Part shown: positions 29,371 through 64,000 of the stretch, one piece after another
Layout of the letters: every line of letters begins with the position of its first letter
Numbering within the stretch: the first letter of the stretch is position 1
Notes under the pieces: generated by a model
The model's input: only the letters and a program-made list of their open reading frames with translations
Told to the model about the DNA's origin: nothing
Database searches by the model: none
Position numbers and translations under genes: made by a program
NCBI GenBank assembly: GCA_021827995.1
Contig: JAKATK010000006.1
Location: forward strand, 1 to 64,000
Direction: 5' to 3'
From: Microcaldota archaeon
Lineage (GTDB): Archaea > Micrarchaeota > Micrarchaeia > Micrarchaeales > Micrarchaeaceae
DNA length: 64,000 nucleotides

Positions 29371-32300
29371 TTAACGCCTGCCCTTCTTCCTGAACGATAG
29401 GTACGCGGCAACGACCACTGCAAGTATTATGACTACGGCCACTGCGGCGTATATAGGTGTGTTGGACTGCGTCGCTGGCGCCTGGGCTATCGTCGAAGTA
29501 TATGCGGCTGATGTGGTTGGCACTGTCGTCTGCACGGTTGTCGTAGTAGTAAGTGTTGGCGTACTGAATACACCGACTATTGGGTCAGCAGGCATGCTGA
29601 AGCTGATCGTGCACGCAGACACATTTACACTGAACGGTTCTATCTCCTGCCAGGCGCCGTTGCGGTATATGTACGGTGCGATCCTACTAGATGGCGCAGC
29701 GCAGTTGTAGTGCAGGGTCACGTTCAGCATCGAGGCACCAGGCGCGCTTATGTTGAATGCCAACAGGACCGAATAGTTGCTCGGTGCGGGGGGCAGCGGT
29801 GTCACGTTCATTATCGACACGTTCACATGCTGCGGCGTAGATGAGTTCGATGTGACGGTTACGTTGACATCGCGTGCGGTGAAGTTTATCCTCTCGTTGT
29901 TTCCGGCTGAGACGTTGACCGTTACGCTATTGTTGTTAGTATTGATCACCGGCCTCTGCGTTATGGTCGTGGTCGGCACGGTCGTAGACGCGGTGGTCGT
30001 CTGTAACAGAGTGGTCGAGGTGGAGGTGGTTGTGGAAGTAGTGGAGGTCGTGGACTTCGGGCCTCCGCCGCCGGCACCGCCAGGCGCCATCACCACCACG
30101 CCGGACGATGCAGGTGAGGTCTGCGTTTCTGGCGTGTTAGCACTGTCAGTGACCTGCAACTCGAACGTGTAGGTGTTGCCTCCGGTCAGCGTGTTTGATG
30201 CTATGCAGGACTCGACGGCGTTGACCGATGCGCCTGTGCCAGAGCCTGTCGCGCATATGCCGTTGGCAGACGAATAGTTGCCGCCTATGCTGTAGAACCA
30301 CTGCCAGGAGTACGGTGACGTGCCAGTAGATGGTGTTATGCCGTTGACAGTGAGAGCACGGTTCGATACGACGCTGGTTAGATTTGGTACTGGAGCAGAG
30401 GGCGCTGTCAGAACCGACGACACGACCACGTTGGAAGAGGCCGACGATGTCTGGGTTTCTGGAGTGCTGGCGCTGTCTGTGACCTTGAATTCGAATGCGT
30501 ATGTGTTGCCGCCGGTCAGGGTGTTCGCAGAAACTGAGCACGATTCGGTAGCGGACGCTGATGCGCCTATGGCGTTGTTCGATGTCGGGCAGACCGCTAT
30601 CGCGTTCGCGGCGGTGAAGGCGCCGCCGTTTATGCTGGTAAGGAACTGCCACGTGTACGTTGACGTGCCTGTCGACGGTATTATGCCGTTGACCGTGAGC
30701 GCCTGGTTCGCGTCCAGTTTGGTGGCGCTGACCGTCGGTGCTGAGGGAGCGGTCAGCGCACTGGCCACGACCACGTTGGAAGAGGCCGACGATGTCTGGG
30801 TTTCTGGCGTGTTAGCGCTATCGGTGACCTTGAATTCGAACGCGTAGGTGTCGCCGCCGGTAAGGGTGTTCGCCGAAACTGAGCACGATTCGGTAGCGGA
30901 CGCTGATGCGCCTATGCCGTTGTTCGATGTCGGGCAGACCGCTATCGCGTTCGCGGCGGTGAAGGCGCCGCCGTTTATGCTGGTAAGGAACTGCCACGTG
31001 TACGTTGACGTGCCTGTCGACGGTATTATGCCGTTGACCGTGAGCGCCTGGTTCGCGTCCAGTTTGGTGGCGCTGACCGTCGGTGCTGAGGGAGCGGTCA
31101 GAGCACTGGACACGACAACATTTGCGGATGCTGCAGAGATGTTCGTATCGGGGGTGCTGGCGCTGTCGTTCGCCCTGAGCTTGAACGAGTAGGTGTCGCC
31201 GGCCGTGAGAGTGTTGGCTGGTATGTCGCAGGATTCGGCCGCGCCTGAAACGGCGCCCAAGAAGCTGTTACATGGAGTGGGAGCCAAAGAGAGGTATGCG
31301 CCGCCGTTGGTGCTAATGCGCCAGTCGCCGCCGTATGTTGGAGTGCCGGTCGAGGGCATGTGGTCGGTGAGCCCTAGCGCCTGGTTCACGTCGAGCTTTG
31401 TGGCGTTGACCGCGGGGGCTGCTGGTGCGAGGAGCGCGCTGTTCACTGTTATCGTGTTCGACACGGAATTGAACGTGTAGTATGTGGCCGCGCCCGCGTT
31501 GGCGGAGCCCTTGTCGGTCACTATCACGTTGAACGACGTGTCTGACGTGGACGCGATCACGTTGCTTATCAGCGTCGGGGTGCCTGCAGATACGCCGCTT
31601 ATGCTGTTTGCTACTGCACCGTTGGTCGTTAGGTTGATCGTGAACGGGCCTATGCCGTTGGCAACTATGACGTTATACGTCACTGTCTGGCCCACGTCGT
31701 ACGTGGTGCCCGTGCTGGCGAGGGAGAACTGCGTCACTGTCGGGTTTGCGTATATTACGACGTTGCCGGTATGGGCGGAATCTGCGATCTCTGGCGTTGT
31801 CGCATCGTCCGCGAGTTGGTCCACCATGTAGTAAGTGCCCGGATTGATGCCTGCAGTGGATAGCGGCGCGCTGATTTTGCCGCAATAGCCTTGCGTCGAC
31901 CCTTGCCTTGAGTTGAGATTGCCGTAAACGAGGGCGTTGGAGACTGCATTGTAGACCAATGTTTGGAAGAAGTATGTGCCGCCGTACTGGGTGCCGCCGG
32001 TCACAGTGTTTGTGGTGCAGGTCATGTTGAATGCCTGGCCAACGTCGTAATTCGTCGCATATAGGGTGGCCGTAGGAGTGCCGGTGAGCTGCGGGTTGAT
32101 TGTAAGAGTATTGCCGAGCGTTGTCACTGTATTGGCAGGCGAGCCAGTGTCCTGGGCGAATGCGTTGAACGACCATGTGCCGAATATCGTGTTGGAGCCG
32201 CTGCTCAGCGTCCTGGCCACGCCGTTGTACGTCAGCGTGAGCGTGTTGCTCGACACCGCATTTGCCACAAGGCTCAGGGAGCCGCTGCCCAGTATAGGCG

Positions 32301-32547
32301 AAGAGACCGTGTTGCCGGATATAACGTTGCCGCTCGACTGGCTGAAGAGCCAGTTGCCGGTGTAGGTACCGGTGCCGCCTGTTATTATTGTATTCGCGAA
32401 CGAAATCTGGCCCACGTCGATTGTGCTGTTAGTGAGTGTGAACGGGTTCGGCGTTGCCGTGAGCGCGGCCGAGGCGCTCTGCGCGGATAAGAATATAATT
32501 ACTAGAGAGATGAACGACAACAGGCCCACTGGGCTATTCCTAATCAT
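29371..32547 (-). CDS. Large secreted, membrane-anchored surface protein with Ig-like repeats
   Basis: 1058 residues. It has a signal peptide (hydrophobic core ~8-22, likely cut after SAQSASA), then six or more beta-rich domains of ~115 residues with recurring TVNGIIPSTGTSTYTW and ESCSVSANTLTGG elements and paired cysteines. A Ser/Thr-rich stalk (~840-880) follows, then a further beta domain, a second Thr-rich stretch, and a single C-terminal span followed by FRKKGRR. It is likely a major cell-surface or adhesion protein, glycosylated through the N-x-S/T sites. Two repeats are nearly identical at DNA level. A TATTTAAG box lies ~30 bases upstream and GGTT just before the ATG. Confidence 0.85.
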   Translation of the reverse strand: MIRNSPVGLLSFISLVIIFLSAQSASAALTATPNPFTLTNSTIDVGQISFANTIITGGTGTYTGNWLFSQSSGNVISGNTVSSPILGSGSLSLVANAVSSNTLTLTYNGVARTLSSGSNTIFGTWSFNAFAQDTGSPANTVTTLGNTLTINPQLTGTPTATLYATNYDVGQAFNMTCTTNTVTGGTQYGGTYFFQTLVYNAVSNALVYGNLNSRQGSTQGYCGKISAPLSTAGINPGTYYMVDQLADDATTPEIADSAHTGNVVIYANPTVTQFSLASTGTTYDVGQTVTYNVIVANGIGPFTINLTTNGAVANSISGVSAGTPTLISNVIASTSDTSFNVIVTDKGSANAGAATYYTFNSVSNTITVNSALLAPAAPAVNATKLDVNQALGLTDHMPSTGTPTYGGDWRISTNGGAYLSLAPTPCNSFLGAVSGAAESCDIPANTLTAGDTYSFKLRANDSASTPDTNISAASANVVVSSALTAPSAPTVSATKLDANQALTVNGIIPSTGTSTYTWQFLTSINGGAFTAANAIAVCPTSNNGIGASASATESCSVSANTLTGGDTYAFEFKVTDSANTPETQTSSASSNVVVASALTAPSAPTVSATKLDANQALTVNGIIPSTGTSTYTWQFLTSINGGAFTAANAIAVCPTSNNAIGASASATESCSVSANTLTGGNTYAFEFKVTDSASTPETQTSSASSNVVVSSVLTAPSAPVPNLTSVVSNRALTVNGITPSTGTSPYSWQWFYSIGGNYSSANGICATGSGTGASVNAVESCIASNTLTGGNTYTFELQVTDSANTPETQTSPASSGVVVMAPGGAGGGGPKSTTSTTSTTTSTSTTLLQTTTASTTVPTTTITQRPVINTNNNSVTVNVSAGNNERINFTARDVNVTVTSNSSTPQHVNVSIMNVTPLPPAPSNYSVLLAFNISAPGASMLNVTLHYNCAAPSSRIAPYIYRNGAWQEIEPFSVNVSACTISFSMPADPIVGVFSTPTLTTTTTVQTTVPTTSAAYTSTIAQAPATQSNTPIYAAVAVVIILAVVVAAYLSFRKKGRR
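30430..31119 (-). repeat. Two near-identical 345-bp tandem repeats inside the surface-protein gene
   Basis: Copies at 30430-30774 and 30775-31119 differ at few positions, and the distal ~230 bp are almost identical. Each encodes 115 residues, one Ig-like unit including FLTSINGGAFTAANA. Flanking units (about 30070-30429 and 31120-31480) are recognisably homologous but diverged. The similarity points to recent duplication or gene conversion. Confidence 0.85.
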
Positions 32548-39711: not shown

Positions 39712-40104
39712 CGATTGGTAAGGCGCACTACATGCGACTACCTGTAATTACGCTATAGCAAACAGCGGTTTAACAAAGCGAAGAGAGAGTTTGGATATTA
39801 TTGCTGGAGAGCATATACGGCCCAGCGACATGAGGATGGCAAACCGGCTCTTGTTCTTTTCCGTACTAACAGAAATCGACACCGGTTACAGCTATGTAAA
39901 AAACGCCGTTTCGACTTCTACATCGCAATACCACCTTTTATAACTTCCTTCCTAATCCGATCGTGTGAGGGCCACGCAACACACAGCTATCAGCACTCTA
40001 AGGTGCAACGCGTGTAGTTGTGTTGTGGGGAGGTGTGCAGTCAAAAAAACAGACCACAAGGGTCATGAGTGGTATTGCACTTCCTCCTTTCCTCACCTTA
40101 CCGA

Positions 40105-40944
40105 TTACTTCCCGTAGTTTTCACTATAGGGTTCACCTCGGGTAAGCATGCAGTGAATTATCTTCACCAACTTTCTGGCAATCGCCACTATCGCATCCTG
40201 TTCCCCGTTCCTTCGCACCTTCTTCAGGTAATATTTCCTGAGCTTTCCCTTCTTTCTCACAGCGCTGTGAGCGTCTTGGATGAGGATCCATCTGAGTTGT
40301 TTGTCTGACTTGCGTTTTAGGCCACCGTCTCTCCTTCTATCTCCGGATTGCCGTACGATGGGCGCAAGACCCGCGTAACTCGCCAATTCGTTGTGGGTTG
40401 GGAACCTCGATATGTCACCTATGGAAGAGGCGATGTGTACGGCCGAATAATGGCTAATGCCTGGTATCGTATCCAACAGCTTCGCGTACTTGGAGACCTC
40501 GTAAGTCTCTTCTATCTTTTGATCGTAGTCCCATATCTCGCCAGTTAGCACGCCGGCCAAGTGTACCAGTCTGTGGAGGGCGTCTTCCTGGACCTTGTTC
40601 TCCAACTCTATGCTATCGAGTTCGAGTAGTGCCTCATCGCCCAAGATATCCGTGTATGGGATGTCTATGCCCTCGCGTGCGAGTATGGAGCGTATTTTAT
40701 TTTTCAACATTGTCCGCATCTCCACCATACTTTTCCTTTGCCGGATAATGTCCCTGACCTCCCTGGTTCTCTTGTCTGGTACGTAACACGTAGGGAGATC
40801 ATTCATCCTTAGATGCTTTGCGATCACCTTGGCATCCTCCCTGTCGGTTTTCTTTTCCGACTCCGCGATTTCGCGCAGCCTGTTTGGGTTCACCATCTGC
40901 ACTGCCACGTTGTTTGCGGCGAGGCAATCGTATGGCTTCGGATA
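40105..40944 (-). pseudogene. IS110-family transposase, N-terminally truncated
   Basis: About 280 codons open, C-terminal two-thirds of an IS110/IS1111 transposase. The DEDD domain end (KKTDREDAKVIAKHLRMND) is followed by the transposase-20 domain (LLDTIPGISHYSAVHIASSIG, SYAGLAPIVRQSG). The N-terminal ~70-80 residues with the first catalytic aspartate are missing: the frame stops where DDE-element sequence starts. Family members move a circular intermediate and lack inverted repeats. Confidence 0.8.
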
Positions 40945-41271
40945 TTAGGAAGGACGAAAAGGGAGAAGAAACTTGCGAGGTTCTTGAAAAGTTTCCTGAG
41001 CAACTGGCAAGACTATTTCACCTACCTCGAGTTTCCAGGTTGCCCAAAGACTTCCAATGCAGTCGAACAGTTCAATAGAAGGTTTGAAAAGAAGAGGCAA
41101 ACCATGCACGTATTCAGAAAGGAAAGAACCGCAAGGTCTTTTACGTCGTTATTCGCCCTTCATTCGATGTTCAGGAGATTCGAGGCGAGAAAGAACAAAG
41201 GGAAATCGCCACTGGAGATCGCAAATGTGACTCTGGCCGCCAAAAGTGTATTCGACCTTTTGCCGCATTGA
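40942..41271 (+). pseudogene. C-terminal fragment of a DDE transposase
   Basis: About 110 residues beginning LGRTKREKKLARFLKSF. It contains KTSNAVEQFNRRFEKKR and MHVFRKERTARSFTSLF, the conserved end of a DDE transposase in which the E precedes the C-terminal helix region. It ends at a proper stop just before the right inverted repeat. The upstream part was lost where IS110 sequence joins. I cannot name the IS family. Confidence 0.65.
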
Positions 41272-41324
41272 GGCCGAAAGACGGGTGGCGTTTCTAGCGG
41301 CAGCGCTATTCCGCGTTCAGTTTG

Positions 41325-42293
41325 CTAAACTTTGAAAAACTCACTACAAATGTTTTTAGCTTCGATAGTGCCGTGTTCTATTAGATCATAACTTCCACAA
41401 TTATGCTTATAAATTCTAATGACTTTGAAACCATGCCGTCTCAACTTGACAAGTATGTCGTCCCTTTTTACAATTAGTTTATTATTAATTTTTGTAGAGT
41501 ATTCTATTCTAATTATTTTAAATTTAGATAATATATTTTCATTTATCACATAGAACTCGTTTCCTTTAATGTCTAAATCCAATAAATAAGGAGATTTTAT
41601 TTTAAATTCTTTTAACAATGTAGCTATGCTGACACTTCTTACGTTTACAGTTTTAAAACCTTTGATACTAAACACCGAAGAACCTCCACTATTTTCTGGA
41701 TTTACTGGAAACTTTATTATCGCATCTTTTCCTATAGCATAATTAACAAAAGTTATTCTCTTTGCCAATTTTGGATTTAATTTCAAATTTTCTAAAGCAA
41801 TACGATAAGAATTAGGATCTGGTTCAAAGGAATATACCCGCGCTCCCCTATTAGCATAGTATAATGCAGTATCTCCTGTAAAACCTCCTGCTTGAATGAC
41901 CACTTTACCGTCAAGATCATAATCTGAGAAGTGTATGTCATATAAAAAAGTTTCAGAAAAAATTAGCTCGTCAAAGCTGCTTATACTAAATTTTATATCA
42001 TTCGGTGTAATAAGTATACTATTTTTATATCTCCAAGTACCTTTCTTGTTTTTATAAAATTTTACACCATTTGACACCGAAAAGTAAAACAATTGTCTAA
42101 TTTTTTTATAATCATTTTTATTAAGCTTTAGCACAAATCCATTAGGGCAAATCAACGTTCCTCTTGTTTTTACGATATTAAGTAGATTATGTAATAAGTA
42201 TTCTCTGTTTCCAAACTTGGCTATTTTTATTACCAATAGTAGTCTATCAATAAATCCATCAGCATATCTTTTTAATTCAAAATTAGGCTTCAC
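41325..42293 (-). CDS. FkbM-family methyltransferase, strongly AT-rich
   Basis: 322 residues. A ~120-residue lysine-rich N-terminus precedes the SAM-binding core (GKVVIQAGGFTGDTALYYANRG, VYSFEPDPNSY) and the FkbM C-terminal pattern (VRSVSIATLLKEF, YLLDLDIKGNEF). It is probably an O-methyltransferase acting on a surface glycan. Codon use is dominated by A/T (many AAA, ATA, TTT), unlike any neighbour, and it is flanked by transposase remnants, so acquisition by transfer is likely. The stop codon is supplied by the inverted repeat of the adjoining element, so the original C-terminus may be altered. Confidence 0.8.
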   Translation of the reverse strand: MKPNFELKRYADGFIDRLLLVIKIAKFGNREYLLHNLLNIVKTRGTLICPNGFVLKLNKNDYKKIRQLFYFSVSNGVKFYKNKKGTWRYKNSILITPNDIKFSISSFDELIFSETFLYDIHFSDYDLDGKVVIQAGGFTGDTALYYANRGARVYSFEPDPNSYRIALENLKLNPKLAKRITFVNYAIGKDAIIKFPVNPENSGGSSVFSIKGFKTVNVRSVSIATLLKEFKIKSPYLLDLDIKGNEFYVINENILSKFKIIRIEYSTKINNKLIVKRDDILVKLRRHGFKVIRIYKHNCGSYDLIEHGTIEAKNICSEFFKV

Positions 42294-42388
42294 GAATACA
42301 CCTGTTAATCGCGCAATGTTATTTTACATTACGTTTATAACTTAAGTTCGCCACATTAAACCTTAAAAGGTAGGAGGTTACGTGTTCT

Positions 42389-43818
42389 TTGACCAACATG
42401 AACAGCGTAACACTACCATTAGGTAGTATATCAATCATGGATAAAATAGATAGGGAATACGGTCTGATATCAAGTATCTTCGGAAAGGCAGGTGGCAGGT
42501 CCCGTAATTTTGTAGGCGCAGTAAAGCTTCTCCTATGCAACAGGATGGATGACGCCGTATCGGTGCACCAGATACTTCCTATGTCTTCGGATGAGAGATT
42601 CGGACTTCTAGGCCTTAAAGAGGGCATTTCGGAAAGGTCTCTTTACAGGGATCTGCAAAAAGTAGGAAGGGAATTTCCAATCCTTCTTGAGAGATACTAG
42701 AATGTCGTTAAGAAATACGGATTGATATGCGGGATCCAGATATCAGATTTCTCCTCGTCTTATTTCGAAGGCAAGAATGCGGAGTTTGCAGAACATGGAT
42801 ATTCGAGAGACCATCGGCCTGATAAGAAACAGGTTACCTGGGCATTTCTACAGGAATAGACGGCATACCGACTGCGCTGACCATACAGAGAGGGAACGTT
42901 CAGGACAAGACGCACATGAGAGAGATGTTGAGGGTGTGCATAAAGATTCTCGATAAAGGATCGCTCCTGATGTTTGACTGCGGTGCAAACACCCCAAGGG
43001 TAAAGGATACGATTGTTGGGAACGGCCTGCACTATTTGACATTGAAACCGAAGAAAGTAGGCACCTACAGGAATCTCATAAAAGGTTTTGATAATGGATG
43101 TGGAAAGTTCGACTGCAACGGTGTCGAATATCTGTATACGAAGAAGCCATCAAAGCGCCCTGGCGAATTCCTGTACATCTATTTCTCGAAGAAACTCTGC
43201 GAGGATCAGTTGCGCAAGAAGGGCTCGAAGTTCAGGGAGAGGATGGCGAAAGGCAACGAACTTGTCAAAAAGGCGAAGCGGCACAAGGCGGTCCAGATGT
43301 TTCCATCTAAAGAAGGGTGGGTTGGTCTTTATCCCGAAATCCAACATTCTCTTGTCGACATACGCAACCCTTACATAACGAATATTGAGGGTTTCTTCAT
43401 CCTGGAAAGCTCTTTGGATGCAGAACCAGAAAAGATACTCGAACTCTTTAAACAGAGGGATATCGCGAGGAAATTCATCAGGGAGATGAAGGAAGGTGGC
43501 GAACTACGGCCGATTAGGCACTGGAATAGATGGGCAATCATAGGCGCACTGTTCATCTGTTTACTCGCAACTGCCATGATAAATTTGACACTTAATTCTT
43601 GCAAGGATCCCGACGTCAAGAACTTCAAGCTACTCAAAAAATACCTTGGAAATTTGACGCTTACGGTGATTTATCCGCAAAACGCCTTCAGAGTAATGGT
43701 CGTGAGCAACATCTCTGCTCAGATACGTGCAATTTTTGCGATTTTCTGGACAGATATAGCACAAAAGACCTGCATCTACGCTGGTAAATCAGGTTTGGCG
43801 AACTGGTCTACGCATTAG
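42389..43818 (+). pseudogene. IS4/IS1634-like transposase broken by a stop and a frameshift
   Basis: The N-terminal 103 codons (MNSVTLPLGSISIMDKIDREYG) end at an in-frame TAG at 42698-42700. Translation resumes in the same frame through SSYFEGKNAEFAEHGYSRDHRPDKKQVTW, then shifts frame near 42839 into GISTGIDGIPTALTIQRGNVQDKTHM and FDCGANTP. The rest continues with the catalytic-glutamate region (FKQRDIARKFIREMKEGGELRPIRHW) to the end. The DDE pattern and RDHRP element resemble IS1634/IS4 transposases. Both disruptions suggest decay rather than programmed recoding. A GGAGG precedes the TTG start. Confidence 0.75.
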
Positions 43819-43920
43819 GACTAGAGGTAGGAATCACATTTGGCGAGGTTAGGTGGCAGCAGAGAAACCTGACACAGGTGTCTCTGCCGCGAAGACCTGG
43901 GTGACCAAGAAAAACTTCCC

Positions 43921-44154
43921 GTGTATGAATTTGCGGTTATTGGTTTGAGAACGCATCCGTACTTCGGTTACGGTGCAGGTACCGGATCCGAAAGGGCAAC
44001 TTTCAATAAGGCTGTGGCGATGATGCGGCGGGCAGGAATAATCACAAGGAGCGCCGGACTTGACAACTATTACGGAAGACAGTATATTATTAATGTATTC
44101 GACGAGGACGCCACGATACACATGGCATCAAAGGAAAATACGGAGATAAAATGA
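43921..44154 (+). pseudogene. Unplaced fragment, possibly from a transposase
   Basis: An open frame of 77 codons in the insertion-sequence region. It includes NKAVAMMRRAGIITRSAGL and NYYGRQYIINVFDEDATIH, which read like part of a DDE-type transposase, but the family is not certain and no start signal is seen. The 246 bases from here to the flippase gene contain a TATA-like GTATTATAAG (about 44213) and nothing else recognisable. Confidence 0.35.
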
Positions 44155-46090: not shown

Positions 46091-46924
46091 ATGGTACAAA
46101 AGAGGCTCTTCGTCTTCCTCGGCTTTTTGGGTGGCGCCTTCCTGTTCCTCGGCCTAGCATCTGCAATCGCGCAGAGCGCGCTCACCGACGTGGTCAAGAT
46201 ACTGCTGCTGATAGTCGCAATGCTTTTCGATGTACTGGCCTTCTCGTCGCGCTATTACTCATACCTGCTCATACCGTTCATGAGGCAGAGGAGCAAGGAC
46301 ATAGTGCTCAGCAACGAGAACGCCTACCACCTGTCGCCTGCCGGCGACGCGACGCTGAGGAAGGACGGCGACGAGTTCATCGCTACGGTTTACATAAACA
46401 TACCGCTGTACCGATCGGCCACGGAGATGACGGACGAGGAGAAGATAGACTTCTCCAGGCAGGTGAGCAGGCTGGTCGGCGTGAGCAGGGACCCGGTGCG
46501 CTTCACGTCGGAGCTGTACATGATGAACAAGGACTCCTACATACAGACGCTGAAGGACACGATAAACTCGATAGAGAACGAGGTAGTTGAGCTGACGAAC
46601 AAGAAGGCACCGGCCAGGGAGCTGGACCGCGCGAAGGGCAAGCTGGCGATGTGGCACACCGTACTGGACCACGTGACGACTGCGCAGTCGCTAGACCTGG
46701 CCACTTTCGCCGCGGTTTCGGCCCGTGGCGGCAAGGAGTTCGAAGCGGTCAGCATAGCCCAGCAGCGCGCCAGGGAGCTGATGTCAGGAGTGGGCGCCAT
46801 CTTCGGCGTGACGCCTGCGGTCGTCACAGGACCGGACCTACTCAAGCTCATAGAGCCTGAATACCTGATACCTTTCTCGACGGTCAGCGAGACGATAAAC
46901 AGGAACGTGGCTGCGGTGGTTTGA
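46091..46924 (+). CDS. VirB4 N-terminal-domain-like membrane protein 1
   Basis: 277 residues. Two hydrophobic spans (about 7-28 and 34-54) are followed by a soluble alpha/beta domain. ATVYINIPLYRSATEMTDEEK, ISRDPVRFTSEL-like VSRDPVRFTSELYMMN, KLAMWHTVLDHV and QQRARELMSGVGAIFG read like the N-terminal half of VirB4/TraC ATPases, which carry a membrane-proximal domain before the motor. No ATP site is present here. The next gene starts at its stop codon, so the products are made together. Confidence 0.55.
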   Translation: MVQKRLFVFLGFLGGAFLFLGLASAIAQSALTDVVKILLLIVAMLFDVLAFSSRYYSYLLIPFMRQRSKDIVLSNENAYHLSPAGDATLRKDGDEFIATVYINIPLYRSATEMTDEEKIDFSRQVSRLVGVSRDPVRFTSELYMMNKDSYIQTLKDTINSIENEVVELTNKKAPARELDRAKGKLAMWHTVLDHVTTAQSLDLATFAAVSARGGKEFEAVSIAQQRARELMSGVGAIFGVTPAVVTGPDLLKLIEPEYLIPFSTVSETINRNVAAVV

Positions 46925-47758
46925 TTGGACGAAGAGGCCATAATGTATCTCGCGCTCACTGCGCTGGTAGCGCTCATTGTGCTGCTGATCCTGCCGTCGT
47001 TCGGGGGCGGCATCTTCTCCATACTAGCTGCGCTTATCGCGCTTGCGACGATCGGCCTGATAATCATGCTCAACTGGGCGGACTTCGTTGTCTTCCCGCT
47101 GGTAACCAACATGCTCGGCGTGACGTTCCAGCCGGCCAGGGACTACAGGATAGTCAAGACGCAGGATGCTGTGCTCAAGAACGTGAGCGGCCTCTACTAC
47201 GCGACCGGCTACCTGACCGCGAACCTATTCCCGTACGTGTTCAAACTGGAGGCACGGCAAGAGGAGGAGGACGCCAAGCTGCTGGCGGCCCCGGACACCT
47301 GGGAGCGCGCGATAATGAACATAGACTTCCCGTTCAAGTTCCACGTCGTGTCCTCTGGGTTAGACGTGCAGAACGTTAGGGACGAGCTGGAGGGCAAGCG
47401 CTCCTATCAGGAGTTCCAGCTGTCCAGGGCGATGCAGTCTAGCAACGTGAGCGAGACCGCGGTCACAGACCTGCGTAGGAAGATAAACGTGCTGCAGACG
47501 AAGATAGACAGGATCTCGCAGGGCGAGAAGCCCATCGCTACGGTGATGTACATAGAGACGACTGCAGTGGACATATCTGAGAAGGCCGCCATCGACCGCC
47601 TGGCAGCGCAGGTGAAGAGCCTGCAGGTCGCGCTGAGCGGCCTGGACGTGCAGCTGACAAGGGTGGCTGGCAGGGAGCTGTACTCACTGTTCAGGTTCAA
47701 CTTCTCGCTGCCGACGCAGTACGCCGAGCTTGCCACGTACTTCGACAGACAGTCATGA
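46925..47758 (+). CDS. VirB4 N-terminal-domain-like membrane protein 2
   Basis: 277 residues from a TTG start that directly follows the previous stop codon, with GGTGG upstream. Two hydrophobic spans (about 8-28 and 33-55) are followed by DYRIVKTQDAVLKNVSGLYYATGYL and MNIDFPFKFHVVSSGLDVQNV, then a coiled helix region and TVMYIETTAVDISEK. This order (membrane part, then a domain with DFP and a final YSLFRF element) mimics the VirB4 N-terminal module and echoes protein 1, so the two are probably distant paralogues. Confidence 0.55.
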   Translation: MDEEAIMYLALTALVALIVLLILPSFGGGIFSILAALIALATIGLIIMLNWADFVVFPLVTNMLGVTFQPARDYRIVKTQDAVLKNVSGLYYATGYLTANLFPYVFKLEARQEEEDAKLLAAPDTWERAIMNIDFPFKFHVVSSGLDVQNVRDELEGKRSYQEFQLSRAMQSSNVSETAVTDLRRKINVLQTKIDRISQGEKPIATVMYIETTAVDISEKAAIDRLAAQVKSLQVALSGLDVQLTRVAGRELYSLFRFNFSLPTQYAELATYFDRQS

Positions 47759-47783
47759 CGTTCATGAGGTTAATGGTGTTTCG

Positions 47784-49298
47784 ATGACGCTGCTGAAGCT
47801 GCAGAGCATAATGAGCAACGAGGTGGCGAAGAGGTCGTTCTTCTCTAGGCCGCCTGAGCCTCCGGTCAGCGTGCTGCTCAGCGACCCGTTCAGGTCGCTT
47901 TACATAGGCACCACGAAGATATTCAGGGTGCCGTTCACATGGTCCTTCTTCAACCTCACCAACCCGCACATAGCTGTCGTCGGCATAACCGGTTCAGGCA
48001 AGAGCTTCTTCGTCAAGACGCTGCTCATAAGGGCCAGCTACGTCTGGAACACCAACGCGGTCATAATAGACTGGGCAGGGGAGTACAGGGCGTGGGTCAA
48101 GCAGAGCGGAGGCATAATCGTGTCGCTGGCGAAGGGCGACTACATGAACATCATGGACCTGTCCGGCATGAAACCGATAGACAGGGTCAAGCAGATCATG
48201 AACTCGCTGGACATACTCACTGACATAAGCCAGTATCCGGAGCAGAAGAGGCTGACCGAGGAGGCCATCGAGCAGGCCTACACGAACTCTGGCTTCAGGG
48301 TCTCGGAGAGGGCTCCTGAGGACGCCGAGTCGCCCACGCTCAAGGACGTGATAACGCTTCTGGAGGAGAAGCTGCAGGAGGGTACGTACGAGTACCCGGC
48401 AGAACTCGAGAACACGATCTACAGGTTACGCCAGTTCGCCAGGGAGGGCGAGGACTACTTCGCCAGGAAGAGCACCGTAGACCTGGGCAAGCTGGCACAG
48501 TCCGGCCTCGTAGACATAGACCTGTCTGGCCTGCCGGACGAGAAGTTCAGGGCGCTCGCCGGCCTGTTCATACTCCAAACGCTGAAGGAGCGCATGCGCA
48601 GCGAGGGGTGGAGCGAGACGAAGGGCCTCAAGACCATGGTGGTGCTGGACGAGGCCTGGAAGGTCGCGAGCGACGAGAAGAGCGACGCGATCATGATCGT
48701 GCGCGAGGGCAGGAAGTACAACTTCGGCCTGATAGTGGCGTCGCAGAACCCCACGGACATAAACGAGGCGATCTTCTCCAACGTCGGCACGACGTTCATA
48801 TTGAGGATAAAGTTCGAAAAGTTCCTGAACTACCTGCAGGGGTCGCTCAACTTCTCCAACTTCATACGCACAGAGATAAGCAAGTTCGGTGTGGGCCAGG
48901 CCGCCGTTGAGATGGCGTTCCAGACCTCGCTGAGGTTCCCGGAGACCTTCGTGCTCGAGAGGATACACGGCGAGGAGCCGCTGTACGTGTACGTGCTCGA
49001 CATGACCGATACGCTCACGCAGAGCGAGATATCTTCAGGCATAGTGGCTAGGGACTACCAGTTCGAGAAGGAGGAGCTGAGGAACAAGCTGGTCGACTAC
49101 GGCGTCAGCACCGAGGGAATCAACACGATATTCGGCGCTTTCGAGACCAGCGGCAGGAACATGAAGATGCTGGAGTTCATACGCATGCTGCGCGACACCG
49201 GAGGAGTCAGCGTGGAGAACATTGTCGCTTTCCTCAAGGGCATGAGCATAGAGGACATGATAATAACCAGGATCGTTAACAGCATAGGTGGCATTTGA
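47784..49298 (+). CDS. VirB4/HerA-type conjugation or secretion ATPase
   Basis: 504 residues. Walker A GITGSGKS (67-74) and Walker B TMVVLDEAWK (~295), with the RecA-like HerA/FtsK/VirB4 arrangement: IDWAGEYRAW after Walker A, LVASQNPTDI-type IVASQNPTDINE (the sensor glutamine) and LRIKFEKFL downstream. The usual ~300-residue VirB4 N-terminal part is missing but is matched by the two upstream genes. The last ~90 residues form a helical domain (NKLVDYGVSTEGINTIF). The ATG follows GGTG by five bases. It could power protein or DNA export, or pilus assembly. Confidence 0.8.
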   Translation: MTLLKLQSIMSNEVAKRSFFSRPPEPPVSVLLSDPFRSLYIGTTKIFRVPFTWSFFNLTNPHIAVVGITGSGKSFFVKTLLIRASYVWNTNAVIIDWAGEYRAWVKQSGGIIVSLAKGDYMNIMDLSGMKPIDRVKQIMNSLDILTDISQYPEQKRLTEEAIEQAYTNSGFRVSERAPEDAESPTLKDVITLLEEKLQEGTYEYPAELENTIYRLRQFAREGEDYFARKSTVDLGKLAQSGLVDIDLSGLPDEKFRALAGLFILQTLKERMRSEGWSETKGLKTMVVLDEAWKVASDEKSDAIMIVREGRKYNFGLIVASQNPTDINEAIFSNVGTTFILRIKFEKFLNYLQGSLNFSNFIRTEISKFGVGQAAVEMAFQTSLRFPETFVLERIHGEEPLYVYVLDMTDTLTQSEISSGIVARDYQFEKEELRNKLVDYGVSTEGINTIFGAFETSGRNMKMLEFIRMLRDTGGVSVENIVAFLKGMSIEDMIITRIVNSIGGI

Positions 49299-49603
49299 TG
49301 GCGCAGGCTGAGACATTCACTGTGAGCAGGGCGGACATCAGGCGCATACTGGTCGTATCTGGGGTTAGCGAGAAGAACATAGCGTCGCTCTTCAGCAGCA
49401 TGGAGAAGGCGCACAGGCACATAAACATAATAGCGTTCGCCAGCCTGCTCGAGAAGGCTGGCGTGGACCGCGACAAGATGACGAACGTGTTCAGGCGCAT
49501 CGGCATGGACGACGTGACTATACGACGCACGTTCGACATGGTCGATGAGGAGCGCATAAGCTCCGAGACCGGCAGGATATACGACGCGACCATAGAGTTT
49601 TGA
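49298..49603 (+). CDS. Small helical protein resembling the C-terminal domain of the motor ATPase
   Basis: 101 residues. Its first ~70 residues (ADIRRILVVSGVSEKNIASLF, IAFASLLEKAG, DKMTNVFRRIGMDDVTIRR) align end to end with the last ~70 of the preceding ATPase (LRNKLVDYGVSTEGINTIF, LEFIRMLRDTGG, ENIVAFLKGMSIEDMIITR), with the same spacing of hydrophobic positions and one-residue gaps. It is coupled by a one-base overlap. It may compete with or dimerise with the motor's tail. Confidence 0.7.
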   Translation: MAQAETFTVSRADIRRILVVSGVSEKNIASLFSSMEKAHRHINIIAFASLLEKAGVDRDKMTNVFRRIGMDDVTIRRTFDMVDEERISSETGRIYDATIEF

Positions 49604-49612
49604 GGCGTGCAC

Positions 49613-49984
49613 ATGGCCAGGGAACTCAGGTGCATAGTGTGCGGCGAGAAGAAGCCAGGACTGGAGGTCGAGGATGACTACGTTATAGACGCAATACGCT
49701 GGTTCAAGACGCACGTCACGAGGAACGCAAAGAACTACAGGCTAGTGGTCTGCAAGGCGTGCTATCCGAAGTACAACAGGTACAGGAGCAGCTACATCAA
49801 GAAGCAGGTGGCCTACCTAGTCTTAGGCTTCGTCTTCGCTGGCCTCCTGGCCATCGTATCGCCGTCCAAGCTAATAGCCCTGGGCTACGGCGCAGCCATA
49901 GTGGTCTTCATGTACGCGCTGTCGCTTCTAAGCTACACGCCCGCGGTGAAGACGCCGGCAGGCCTCAAACCACTAAAGGGATAG
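49613..49984 (+). CDS. Zinc-ribbon membrane protein
   Basis: 123 residues. The N-terminal ribbon has CIVC and CKAC (two C-x2-C pairs ~35 residues apart), followed by two membrane spans (about 65-86 and 88-110) and a proline-rich tail. It sits nine bases after the previous gene and is probably the last gene of the five-gene operon. A ribosome-binding GAGGCGTG precedes the ATG. The function is unknown; a membrane adaptor of the secretion-like system is plausible. Confidence 0.6.
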   Translation: MARELRCIVCGEKKPGLEVEDDYVIDAIRWFKTHVTRNAKNYRLVVCKACYPKYNRYRSSYIKKQVAYLVLGFVFAGLLAIVSPSKLIALGYGAAIVVFMYALSLLSYTPAVKTPAGLKPLKG

Positions 49985-61264: not shown

Positions 61265-64000
61265 CTACTCCCTCTCCCTTGGGGTGGCTATGATGCCTGG
61301 CCTTGGCATGAAGATGTCGCCGGCCTTCTCCAGCTCGCCGATGAGTTTCTCCATCGTCGCGGCGTCTATGCCGGCCCGCTCTGCCTCCTCCTTGACCCTA
61401 GACATCTTGGCCGGCGGCTCCTTGGACTCTAGGTCCTTGACTATGTTCAGTATGACGTTTATCTTGTCTACCTTCTCCTTAGGCATGCCGGTCATGAAGA
61501 TGTCGGCATCGTACCTGCCAGTCCTGTCCACGGCCAGGGTCTTCAGCATGTACTCGCTCAGCGCTATCGCGCGCTCGGCGTCGTGCAGCTCGACGATATC
61601 GGACAGCCTCGTCTTCGCGCTTGCTTCTGCCATCCTGATCAGGCCCTCTATCTGCCTGGGCGTTATCGGCACTGCGCCCTGCTTCTTGCCGGTGCGCCTG
61701 AGCTCTACGTAATAGTCCATTATCCTGTTGGAAGCCTCCTCGCTTAGCCTCGGCATGGCGGTCTTCTTCGACAGCGCTATGTACTTGCGGAGCAGCTCGC
61801 CGTCTATGGGCGGCAGCCCGACCTGGTTGTAGCTCTTCAGTTCGGCGATCATGGCGCCGGCGGCCGCGTGCTGCGTAAGAATGTGCTTGGCTATGCTCTT
61901 GTCCATGCTCTCGTCCATCGTGTCCTTTATAGGGAATATCAGGTCGAACCTGGACAGCAGCGTCGGCGGTATGTCGAACTGCTCAGCCGGGTATACGTTG
62001 GGGTCGAACCTGCCGTACTTGGGGTTCGCGGCCGCTAGGACAGCGGCCTTCGCGTTGAACGTTGCGACTATGCCAGCCTTGGCCACGCTCACCGTCTGGG
62101 ACTCGAGAGCCTCGTGCATGGCTGCCCTGTCCTCGTCGCCTATCTTATCGAACTCGTCTATGCAGTTGTGTATGTACACAAGCGACGCTTCATAGTTGTG
62201 CCACTTGGCCACACTGAGGTCGTAAACGTATCCATCGTATGGCGCTCTCTCCACGCTCACGACAGTCTCCTCTGCCCTGGCCACCATGTGCCGCTTCTGC
62301 TTTATCTCTAGGGTTTTCTCCCTGTTGACCTTGGCGCTGTGCGGTCTAATCAATTCGGTGAGCAACGTTATGTCGCTGCCGGTGACCTGTATTATTGGTA
62401 TCCTGCCATGGACGTCATGTATCCTTGCGCGAACGCCTAGCCTTCTTAGCGCGTACAGCAACACTTTGAGCTCATGGAGCGACTTTGTAGGATGCATGCG
62501 CATTGCTATAATCTTGTTCCCGTTGCGGTTAAAGTCGCCGCCTGTATCAAACACGCCGGCGATGAAAGCGGAGAGCGCCGTGTCGTTGAGCATGAGAATG
62601 TTGTCTATCGATGGGTGCCTAAGGAAGAAGTGTACGCGCTCAACGAAGGTATCGTTGCTCGTCCGCATCTGGTACATCCTGGATACCAAGACATAAGACT
62701 TTCCGCTATGGCCCTCGATTTCGCGAGTCCTGTCCTTTTTATCGTAGAGCGAGAACACGGCAGACTTGCCCATTATGTTGTTTATGATGTCCGTGTTGGC
62801 CCTCGTCTGCGATATGACCACGCTATCGTTCCTTATGTGTCCATCGCCATAAACGCACCCGATGACGTAGGCGTCCGCCTCGGTCACGTCGAGAGTGGCG
62901 ACCGGCCCCGCGACCCTGACCGGAGCCCTCAGCTTGTCGCCGGCCTTTACGTCACTGGCCTTTACCCATAGGTTCTTTACATTGGTCAGCCTCTTGAGCT
63001 TGTGATCCGGGGTGACCTCTAGGCTCAGACCGCTCGCAAAGATGAGTTTGATTATGTCGCCGGAATACGGTCTTCTCAGCAGGGCGAACGCCTGCCTGTG
63101 CAGCATATCTGTCTTTGCCCTCCTGTCGTATATCGTTACGGGCAATGCTGCTTTCTTAGCTTCCATACCATGCTTCGTCTGGTAAACAGCGCCACTGAGC
63201 TCATTCCAGAGACTGCCTGCAGTGATAAGGCGCTGGCCATCATATATCTCCGTATTTTCTGTTATGCAGACAATCCCGCCGGATCCCAAAACCAGGGCTC
63301 CGGCCTTTAACGTCCAGCCGCCCTCGGAGAAGTCATCGCGCTCTGCCACGGCCGTCATGCCGCCTCCGGTAACGGACTTGCCGCTGACGTATATGCCCTT
63401 GGGCACGAGCCTCGCAACGGCCTGGAGTATCCTCGTCTTCGCGCTGCCGGGATCGCCTATCAGCAGTATGTGCATGTCGCTCCTTATTGGGCCGCCGTCC
63501 ACAAGCGTCTTGCCCGGAGTGCCGCCGAAGAGCTGCAGGGCTACCGCCTGCTTTATCTCGTCATACCCGTATATCGACGGTGCTATCGAGTTGGCTATCT
63601 TCTCGAATATCTTCGGGTCCTTGGCCAGCTCCTTTATGAGCCTCGCATCGTCATCGCTTATGTAGAGCTCGGCGAACTCCTTCTGCTTCGGCACTATCGA
63701 GACGGTCTCGAGGAACATCGTGTTCTCGTTCTGCTCTAGCTTGCCCCTGGCGTTCCTGCGCGGCCTTATGCGGAGTATGCCGGTGAGCCCTACCCTGTCG
63801 CCAGGTATGACGGTGTTGACCAGGTCGTCCTCGAGCCAGACCTCGAACTGCTGCGTCGGGGAGTTGCCCCTCAGCCTCTCGAGCGGATCCTGCACGGCTA
63901 TCTTCTGCAGGTTTATGTACTTTGACTTCTCGACAGAACTCTTGAGCGAGCGCCTGTGGCACTGCGGGCACAGTTCCGGGATTTCTTCCTTGCCGACCCT
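61265..64000 (-). CDS. mcm: MCM replicative helicase, 5' end cut by the window, with intein
   Basis: The frame is open to the window edge and contains the zinc finger CPQCHRR just inside it. The visible extein has the OB-type N-domain (PGDRVGLTGIL), Walker A GDPGSAKT, Walker B CIDEFDKIGDED (interrupted by the intein), sensor AAANPKYGRFDP and arginine finger LSRFDLIF, then a C-terminal winged helix. MCM unwinds DNA at forks with the PCNA and PolB encoded here. The intein separates GGIV from CIDEF, the conserved Walker B site. The presenilin gene follows. Confidence 0.95.
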   Translation of the reverse strand, partial: RVGKEEIPELCPQCHRRSLKSSVEKSKYINLQKIAVQDPLERLRGNSPTQQFEVWLEDDLVNTVIPGDRVGLTGILRIRPRRNARGKLEQNENTMFLETVSIVPKQKEFAELYISDDDARLIKELAKDPKIFEKIANSIAPSIYGYDEIKQAVALQLFGGTPGKTLVDGGPIRSDMHILLIGDPGSAKTRILQAVARLVPKGIYVSGKSVTGGGMTAVAERDDFSEGGWTLKAGALVLGSGGIVCITENTEIYDGQRLITAGSLWNELSGAVYQTKHGMEAKKAALPVTIYDRRAKTDMLHRQAFALLRRPYSGDIIKLIFASGLSLEVTPDHKLKRLTNVKNLWVKASDVKAGDKLRAPVRVAGPVATLDVTEADAYVIGCVYGDGHIRNDSVVISQTRANTDIINNIMGKSAVFSLYDKKDRTREIEGHSGKSYVLVSRMYQMRTSNDTFVERVHFFLRHPSIDNILMLNDTALSAFIAGVFDTGGDFNRNGNKIIAMRMHPTKSLHELKVLLYALRRLGVRARIHDVHGRIPIIQVTGSDITLLTELIRPHSAKVNREKTLEIKQKRHMVARAEETVVSVERAPYDGYVYDLSVAKWHNYEASLVYIHNCIDEFDKIGDEDRAAMHEALESQTVSVAKAGIVATFNAKAAVLAAANPKYGRFDPNVYPAEQFDIPPTLLSRFDLIFPIKDTMDESMDKSIAKHILTQHAAAGAMIAELKSYNQVGLPPIDGELLRKYIALSKKTAMPRLSEEASNRIMDYYVELRRTGKKQGAVPITPRQIEGLIRMAEASAKTRLSDIVELHDAERAIALSEYMLKTLAVDRTGRYDADIFMTGMPKEKVDKINVILNIVKDLESKEPPAKMSRVKEEAERAGIDAATMEKLIGELEKAGDIFMPRPGIIATPRERE
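62165..63268 (-). other. MCM intein, 368 residues, with LAGLIDADG endonuclease domain
   Basis: It begins at Cys1 (CITENTEIYDG) and ends YIHN before the extein cysteine (C+1). Splicing block B is EVTPDHKL (T-x2-H) and the C-terminal block is YVYDLSVAKWHNYEA. The endonuclease core has VIGCVYGDG with D at position 8 of the LAGLIDADG motif and IAGVFDTGG in which the second catalytic acid is glycine. Inserting in the MCM Walker B site is a recurrent homing position. Splicing must occur for MCM to work. Confidence 0.9.

Follow-up and report, generated by a model that had tools for sequence, protein, structure and literature searches.

The window analysed here is a 64,000-nucleotide stretch of DNA (positions 1 to 64,000, forward strand, of contig JAKATK010000006.1, GenBank assembly GCA_021827995.1) from a Microcaldota archaeon of the phylum Micrarchaeota. 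It carries a block of five genes, A to E, which very likely encodes the energy module of a type IV secretion-like machine, with a VirB4 split in trans, that is chromosomal, resembles the Ced and Ted systems of Sulfolobales and Thermoproteales and is shared by nearly all sampled Micrarchaeota. The genes are closely spaced (Table 1): B starts immediately 3' of the A stop codon with no gap, 25 bases lie between B and C, and the ATG of D overlaps the stop codon of C by one base (TGATG). Gene E occurs in 21 of 21 loci compared. Further letters are used for the wider operon seen in relatives: V1 to V6 for CedA/VirB6-like genes, P for a pilin gene, H for a gene encoding a protein with six transmembrane (TM) helices, and F and G for two downstream genes. 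No credible family was found in Pfam or NCBIfam for A, D, E, F or G.

Table 1 Genes and motifs of the A–E block (window coordinates).
Feature	Position	Strand	Description and basis
Gene A	46091..46924	+	277 amino acids (aa); two-TM hairpin and VirB4-N-terminal-like alpha/beta domain; paralogue of B (hhalign, conserved position before B)
Gene B	46925..47758	+	277 aa, TTG start; two-TM hairpin and VirB4-N-terminal-like domain (AlphaFold2, Foldseek, CedB model)
Gene C	47784..49298	+	504 aa, ATG start; HerA/VirB4-type RecA motor and C-terminal helical domain (Pfam, NCBIfam)
Walker A of C, GITGSGKS	47982..48005	+	Sequence
Walker B of C, VVLDEAW	48639..48659	+	Sequence
Gene D	49298..49603	+	101 aa, ATG start; stand-alone paralogue of the helical domain at the C-terminus of C (hhalign)
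Gene E	49607..49984 (GTG 49607 or ATG 49613)	+	125 aa; CxxC...CxxC zinc-ribbon-like N-terminal part and two TM helices

A type IV secretion system (T4SS) is expected to possess a VirB4-type AAA+/RecA motor, and C has the properties of one. It is matched in Pfam by DUF87 (2e-17), AAA_10 (2e-14) and the TraG P-loop family (1e-10), and in NCBIfam by CedD (7e-22), CD1110-type VirB4 (1e-19), CedB (2e-17) and HerA (2e-15), such that CedD, the CD1110-type VirB4 and CedB all score above HerA among named proteins. The bit scores fall below the curated full-length cut-offs (61–63 against 700 for CedB and 78 against 600 for CedD), as is expected of a motor that has no N-terminal domain, and HerA models give 42–56 bits against 800–970. 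Approximately 65 residues precede Walker A, and the VirB4-type N-terminal domain is therefore missing from C. The union of N-terminal domain and motor in one chain, a further T4SS trait, is not found here, and the two parts are encoded by separate genes in every locus examined.

C also belongs to the HerA/FtsK superfamily, and the block could in principle be a HerA-type DNA-processing operon in which C would function in DNA repair, with the unrelated membrane proteins A and B as simple anchors. However, CedD and VirB4 models score above HerA models for C, which neither reaches a curated HerA cut-off nor has a NurA neighbor, as a HerA DNA-repair helicase would be expected to. No NurA, Mre11 or Rad50 gene is present in the block, and a separate HerA-like open reading frame is found on contig C20. 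Moreover, B resembles VirB4, and VirB6-like and VirB2-like genes are genomically linked to the block (see below). A repair operon is thus very improbable.

The VirB4 N-terminal domain expected of a T4SS appears to reside in the separate proteins A and B. By profile comparison, these two are full-length paralogues (class-level profiles, hhalign E 1.1e-56 over 266 columns; closer sets, E 2e-19). B alone of the pair was modeled with AlphaFold2 (AF2; 53 sequences), giving a predicted local distance difference test score (pLDDT) of 81 and a predicted template modeling score of 0.63. The predicted fold consists of helices at 3–26 and 30–64, followed by a beta-beta-alpha-beta unit, a helical hairpin and a beta-alpha-beta unit. 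When this model was compared with the PDB using Foldseek, the top 10 matches were all chains of R388 VirB4 (TrwK) or of the type IV secretion complex (prob 0.99–0.84), after which the probability falls to 0.25 with unrelated proteins. In addition, B 181–259 aligns weakly to CedB 148–220, in the N-terminal part of the CedB hidden Markov model (HMM; E 0.005), and C 38–339 matches CedB 254–536, so that B and then C match CedB colinearly, although the B part is weak. A joint A+B profile matched the N-terminal domains of nine monoderm VirB4s weakly and colinearly at E 0.002, whereas F, V, P and G, unrelated families of this operon that served as controls, gave E 0.2 or worse. Searches of the PDB by sequence alone with the B and V profiles returned nothing useful, and matches of ten class-level B proteins to NCBIfam were uninformative. 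Taken together, the evidence from model and profiles that A and B are VirB4-like is good but not final. VirB3–VirB4 fusions are known in some conjugative systems (PMC12102498), and A and B look like such a fusion minus its motor.

A second duplication concerns D. The D family aligns with the C-terminus of C at an hhalign probability of 98.6 (E 7.3e-16, 81 columns), a homology that makes D a detached copy of the motor's helical tail domain. With the paralogy of A and B, this means that the block holds two membrane-anchored modules and two motor tails.

These results agree in most respects with a first-pass annotation of the window, which had described two genes each encoding two membrane spans and an alpha/beta domain, a third encoding a HerA/VirB4 ATPase with both Walker motifs and without the VirB4 N-terminal region, and, coupled to them, a 101-residue helical protein and a zinc-ribbon membrane protein. 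The first description holds for A and B on the basis of sequence and the AF2 model of B, the second is borne out by C, and the arrangement with D and E is confirmed by the coordinates. The broader proposal, a VirB4-type motor split into genes with a duplicated membrane module, serving a secretion, conjugation or pilus-like machine, is supported by the HMM matches of C, the A/B paralogy and the predicted structure of B. Comparison of the membrane proteins with VirB4 N-terminal domains did reveal a resemblance, and no unrelated family was matched.

C was found in 174 of 196 Micrarchaeota genomes, mostly at 55–82% identity, and this spread and identity mark it as a core gene. A scan of GTDB species genomes gave 66 named loci, nearly all titled Micrarchaeota and some Marsarchaeota; Candidatus Micrarchaeum sp. 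A_DKE, a complete genome, is among them. The order A-B-C-D-E, whose lack of conservation in any relative would have told against the annotation, is kept in 54 of the 66 fetched loci, of which several are truncated by contig ends. Given the recurrence of this order and the presence of C in 174 genomes, conservation of the block is not due to chance. C was not found in families f10, f13, f15, part of f17, f22; these are incomplete genomes, although the absences of C and P agree.

In 20 regions from relatives, the block is embedded in a larger common gene order. The arrangement V(5 or 6)-A-B-C-D-E-F-G lies on a single strand in 34 of the 36 loci with sufficient flank, the two exceptions being one split F call and locus L104, where F and G are inverted. 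In L104 (3911-12200) the inverted F and G stand upstream of A–E, another rearrangement of the operon. Upstream of V1 in the five genomes examined are H (six TM, ~243 aa) and P, which has a signal peptide and two TM helices (~118–137 aa, with one of 184 aa from a far upstream start). Most of the class's other families have an A-like gene near C and often a second one beside V genes at another place; only one A-like gene was shown in 4 of 15 positive genomes, and D was not found next to C in several of these families. These distributions indicate that the VirB4 split is old in the phylum and that its linkage is variable.

The annotation had also noted that no relaxase, VirD4, pilin or other mating pair formation (Mpf) genes are adjacent to the block, and had concluded that the machine is reduced. 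The first point is correct for this window, but the operon of relatives does contain VirB6-like genes and a pilin. The second is not supported: in relatives the block lies mid-operon, with six CedA/VirB6-like genes before it, two genes after it and the pilin upstream, and in this genome such parts are found elsewhere. Contig C8 carries V1–V6 (L065 4319-12111), directly preceded by H (L065 3559-4290); on contig C4 (L066), F and G adjoin topoisomerase VI subunit B, as they do in relatives; and P is found on contig C11 (8279-8605). All of these are open frames within contigs, and the parts of the machine are thus spread over four contigs. This scattering indicates that the lack of adjacent Mpf genes reflects rearrangement and not a reduced machine. 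A genome of the same family (G017) likewise has A-B, C and the V genes at separate places.

At positions 40000-44000 of the window, a stretch of low GC (0.43) contains an IS110-type transposase (40105-40908, minus strand), an IS66-type transposase fragment (40813-41271, plus strand) and an FkbM-type methyltransferase. This stretch is probably imported DNA near the end of the rearranged operon.

The proximity of the block in this window to these transposases and the low-GC stretch, apart from V1–V6 and F-G, is what might be expected of a remnant of an integrated conjugative element. However, such a remnant is largely refuted by the distribution: the system is spread across the phylum in conserved order, and all of its parts are present and open in this genome. 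Among the genes common to the loci there is no integrase or relaxase, and plasmid matches of C are all remote (<60% identity). An element remnant is therefore the least credible of the explanations considered.

A T4SS is also expected to include a VirB6/TrbL-type polytopic channel protein, a role for which V1–V6 are candidates. The V proteins carry a signal peptide and several TM helices as well as the motif LRxFxxTRxxGGxxIA...P, and CedA is their sole relevant named match in NCBIfam besides a weak TrbC match. At E <= 0.01, the CedA HMM (NF041796) gave matches in 40 of 116 genomes, none of the 116 over the curated cut-off. In the window's family and its sister family, 23 of 25 such matches lie within 12 kb upstream of C and on its strand. 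An AF2 model of V5 (pLDDT 79) had R388 VirB6 as three of its top four Foldseek matches in the PDB, each weak. Far from being reduced, the VirB6-like subunits are expanded, with six V-like matches in this genome and up to 15–19 per genome in other families. Genomes G003, G009, G113, G140, G150 and others each have 15–19 CedA/VirB6-like matches in at least two clusters, an unusually large expansion.

The remaining expected component, a VirB2/TrbC-type pilin, is putatively provided by P. Its members match TrbC/VirB2 (best 1e-4) and T4SS_pilin (best 2e-4), below curated thresholds but recurrently in several members; no CedA1-like match to P was found in NCBIfam. E had been considered as a pilin and was abandoned after P turned up. 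P is present in 179 of 196 genomes, with up to 12 matches per genome, and lineages without C largely lack it as well (14 of 22 C-negative genomes). The Fisher p for this co-absence, uncorrected for relatedness, is ~2e-13 when two unlisted C-negative genomes, taken to be G182 and G194, are counted, and 1e-10 otherwise. Three VirB2-like pilin genes stand in tandem at L146 38-1297 (genome G060), and genomes G042, G055 and G158 have 10–12 pilin matches; such tandem and multiple copies suggest pilin variation.

These findings raise the possibility that the machine only assembles a pilus or adhesin, with C driving pilin insertion and filament growth for attachment and no cargo being moved. The VirB2-like character of P fits this, as does G, a large membrane protein for which an extensive extracellular portion is predicted, and in T4SS VirB4 acts in pilus biogenesis, pilus production being independent of VirD4 (PMC9259494). 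However, six to ~nineteen VirB6/CedA-like matches per genome exceed the needs of a simple filament base, and Ced systems, which have the same core parts, move DNA (PMC11868833). A pilus alone is thus a rather unlikely function.

With motor, N-terminal-like proteins, channel proteins and pilin candidates considered together, we hold with high confidence that this is a T4SS-like machine with a split VirB4. Several observations nevertheless weigh against this reading. The ties of A and B to VirB4 rest mainly on structure: single-sequence HMM comparisons of B with three bacterial VirB4s were negative, the CedB HMM matched only 2 of 19 B members, the joint A+B match to monoderm VirB4s has an hhalign probability of 13%, and the VirB4 segment matched by B is undefined in the Foldseek output. 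The V5–VirB6 match taken alone is below significance (prob 0.2). No relaxase or VirD4 was seen in the operon or among genes common to the loci, no genome-wide HMM search having been aimed at them. At G000:C13:28167-30365 (L067 2168-4369), a 733-aa protein combines a HerA/VirB4-like motor with two TM helices and an extended C-terminal part. It was considered as a VirD4 partner and dropped, being sporadic (13 of 146 Micrarchaeota genomes); this leaves no conserved coupling-protein candidate. The protein is possibly mobile or defense-related. VirB8 and VirB11 were not recognized among conserved neighbors, where no dedicated search for them was made.

What such a machine would transport can be approached through its relatives. 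With CedD and CedB as the nearest motors, DNA transport is favored, and we give it an even chance; that the movement is import and not export is somewhat less probable. Nearly as good an explanation as DNA transport is a host-interaction machine, in which a pilus-channel would acquire nucleotides, DNA or further macromolecules from a partner archaeon, or inject proteins into it, a role also suggested for the Patescibacteria T4SS. Micrarchaeota such as Mia14 are host-dependent, with very limited metabolism, and pili-like contacts have been seen (PMC5498576). Many Patescibacteria have a T4SS without a relaxase, which has been reported to be essential for epibiotic growth (PMC12102498), and in the present system, near-universal in its phylum, neither relaxase nor VirD4 was seen in the operon (as above, without a genome-wide search). 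The expansion of VirB6 and pilin copies can be compared with the tandem virB6 copies of Rickettsiales (PMC7648143). However, the closest motors by score, CedD and CedB, are importers of chromosomal DNA between kin, and there is no candidate effector gene within the block. Host interaction is therefore a tentative possibility.

Among the closest known systems is Ced (CedA, CedA1, CedB, CedD and CedE). Like the micrarchaeal system it is chromosomal, has no relaxase described and uses a HerA/VirB4-type motor, and both have CedA-like channel proteins (by the CedA HMM), a small two-TM pilin and a VirB4 function shared by two proteins (PMC11868833). CedB and CedD each keep their ATPase, but with their N-terminal parts they match different segments of the N-terminal domain of VirB4, which offers a precedent for VirB4 function divided between two proteins (PMC11868833). 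In contrast to CedB and CedD, however, the two N-terminal-like proteins of Micrarchaeota serve one free-standing motor. There are also six or more CedA-like genes where Ced has CedA and CedE, and D, E, F and G have no known Ced counterpart. By curated cut-off, CedA, CedB and CedD are all missed. Ted (TedA, TedB and TedC) is likewise a domesticated T4SS-like set of VirB2-, VirB6- and VirB4-like proteins (PMC9905601), but TedB is described as a VirB4-like ATPase, TedA is a single channel gene, and neither a tandem array nor free-standing N-terminal proteins are mentioned for it.

The relaxase-less (FATA-like) T4SS of Patescibacteria is chromosomal and widespread in small-genome epibionts, usually lacks a relaxase, and has VirB4, VirB6 and a VirB2-like pilin (PMC12102498). 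It differs in belonging to a bacterial lineage, in its one-chain VirB4 and in the presence of VirB3, with no VirB3–VirB4 fusion found. A nanohaloarchaeal SPEARE-like VirB4/TraG locus is a DPANN VirB4-like system tied to host interaction (PMC10266531), but there a giant Ig-repeat protein is fused to the ATPase and the neighboring VirB4 keeps its N-terminal domain (PF03135). In R388 and pKM101, the VirB4 N-terminal domain contacts VirB3 under the membrane, and two VirB4 copies per protomer are present, which A and B may imitate (PMC9259494). These systems have a one-chain VirB4, a single VirB6, an outer-membrane complex, a relaxase and VirD4. The parts of the micrarchaeal machine are thus clearly T4SS/Ced-like, whereas its VirB4 architecture and VirB6 expansion were not found described.

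The R388 structure suggests how the split machine might work. There, each inner-membrane protomer holds a single VirB3, whose two TM helices wrap the N-terminal domain of VirB4, together with a central and an outside copy of VirB4, and TM segments of VirB6 contact VirB3 (PMC9259494). In Micrarchaeota, the TM hairpins of A and B would fill the role of VirB3, and the two proteins would stand in for the two VirB4 copies of each protomer. They may form a ring under a V1–V6 channel platform, onto which hexameric C would dock as the motor ring, with D possibly modulating C through its copied tail. ATP hydrolysis by C would then extract P and build a pilus on the V1–V6 platform. This pilus would subsequently act as a conduit, with G reaching outward, and the cargo would most likely be DNA obtained from partner cells or from kin, in the manner of Ced. 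In its fullest form, with a three-part VirB4 (two anchors, a shared motor and D as regulator), a heteromeric channel of six or more VirB6-like proteins and a contact pilus, required for the lifestyle, by which these symbionts draw DNA or other macromolecules out of partner archaea, the model is speculative and doubtful as a whole.

Elsewhere in the window, an MCM helicase gene (61265-63895, minus strand) contains an intein at its Walker B motif (Pfam Intein_splicing, E 4e-12), with the junctions GGIV / CITENTEIYDG ... IHN / CIDEFDKI. The protein encoded at 29371-32547 (minus strand) is of surface type and 1058 aa long; its tandem repeats are nearly identical (TSTYTWQFLTSINGGAFTAANAIAVCPTSNN...), and it has a Thr-rich stalk and a C-terminal TM helix. 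It may be an S-layer protein or an adhesin.

No description of this system in Micrarchaeota was found in the open literature; preprints and most subscription journals were beyond the search, and an earlier description is possible. In the genome paper on Mia14, the section on secretion names type IV pili and Sec/Tat but does not include this system. VirB4 is the most conserved T4SS protein. Its natural separation into N-terminal and motor parts makes the role of each, and of the two copies per protomer, testable. A function class can now be assigned to approximately fifteen genes conserved across the phylum, most of which have no family match in the libraries searched. The machine would represent a third archaeal T4SS-like branch next to Ced and Ted, parallel to the relaxase-less T4SS of Patescibacteria, and is a concrete candidate for the means by which these small, partner-dependent archaea may contact their partners and exchange DNA or other macromolecules.

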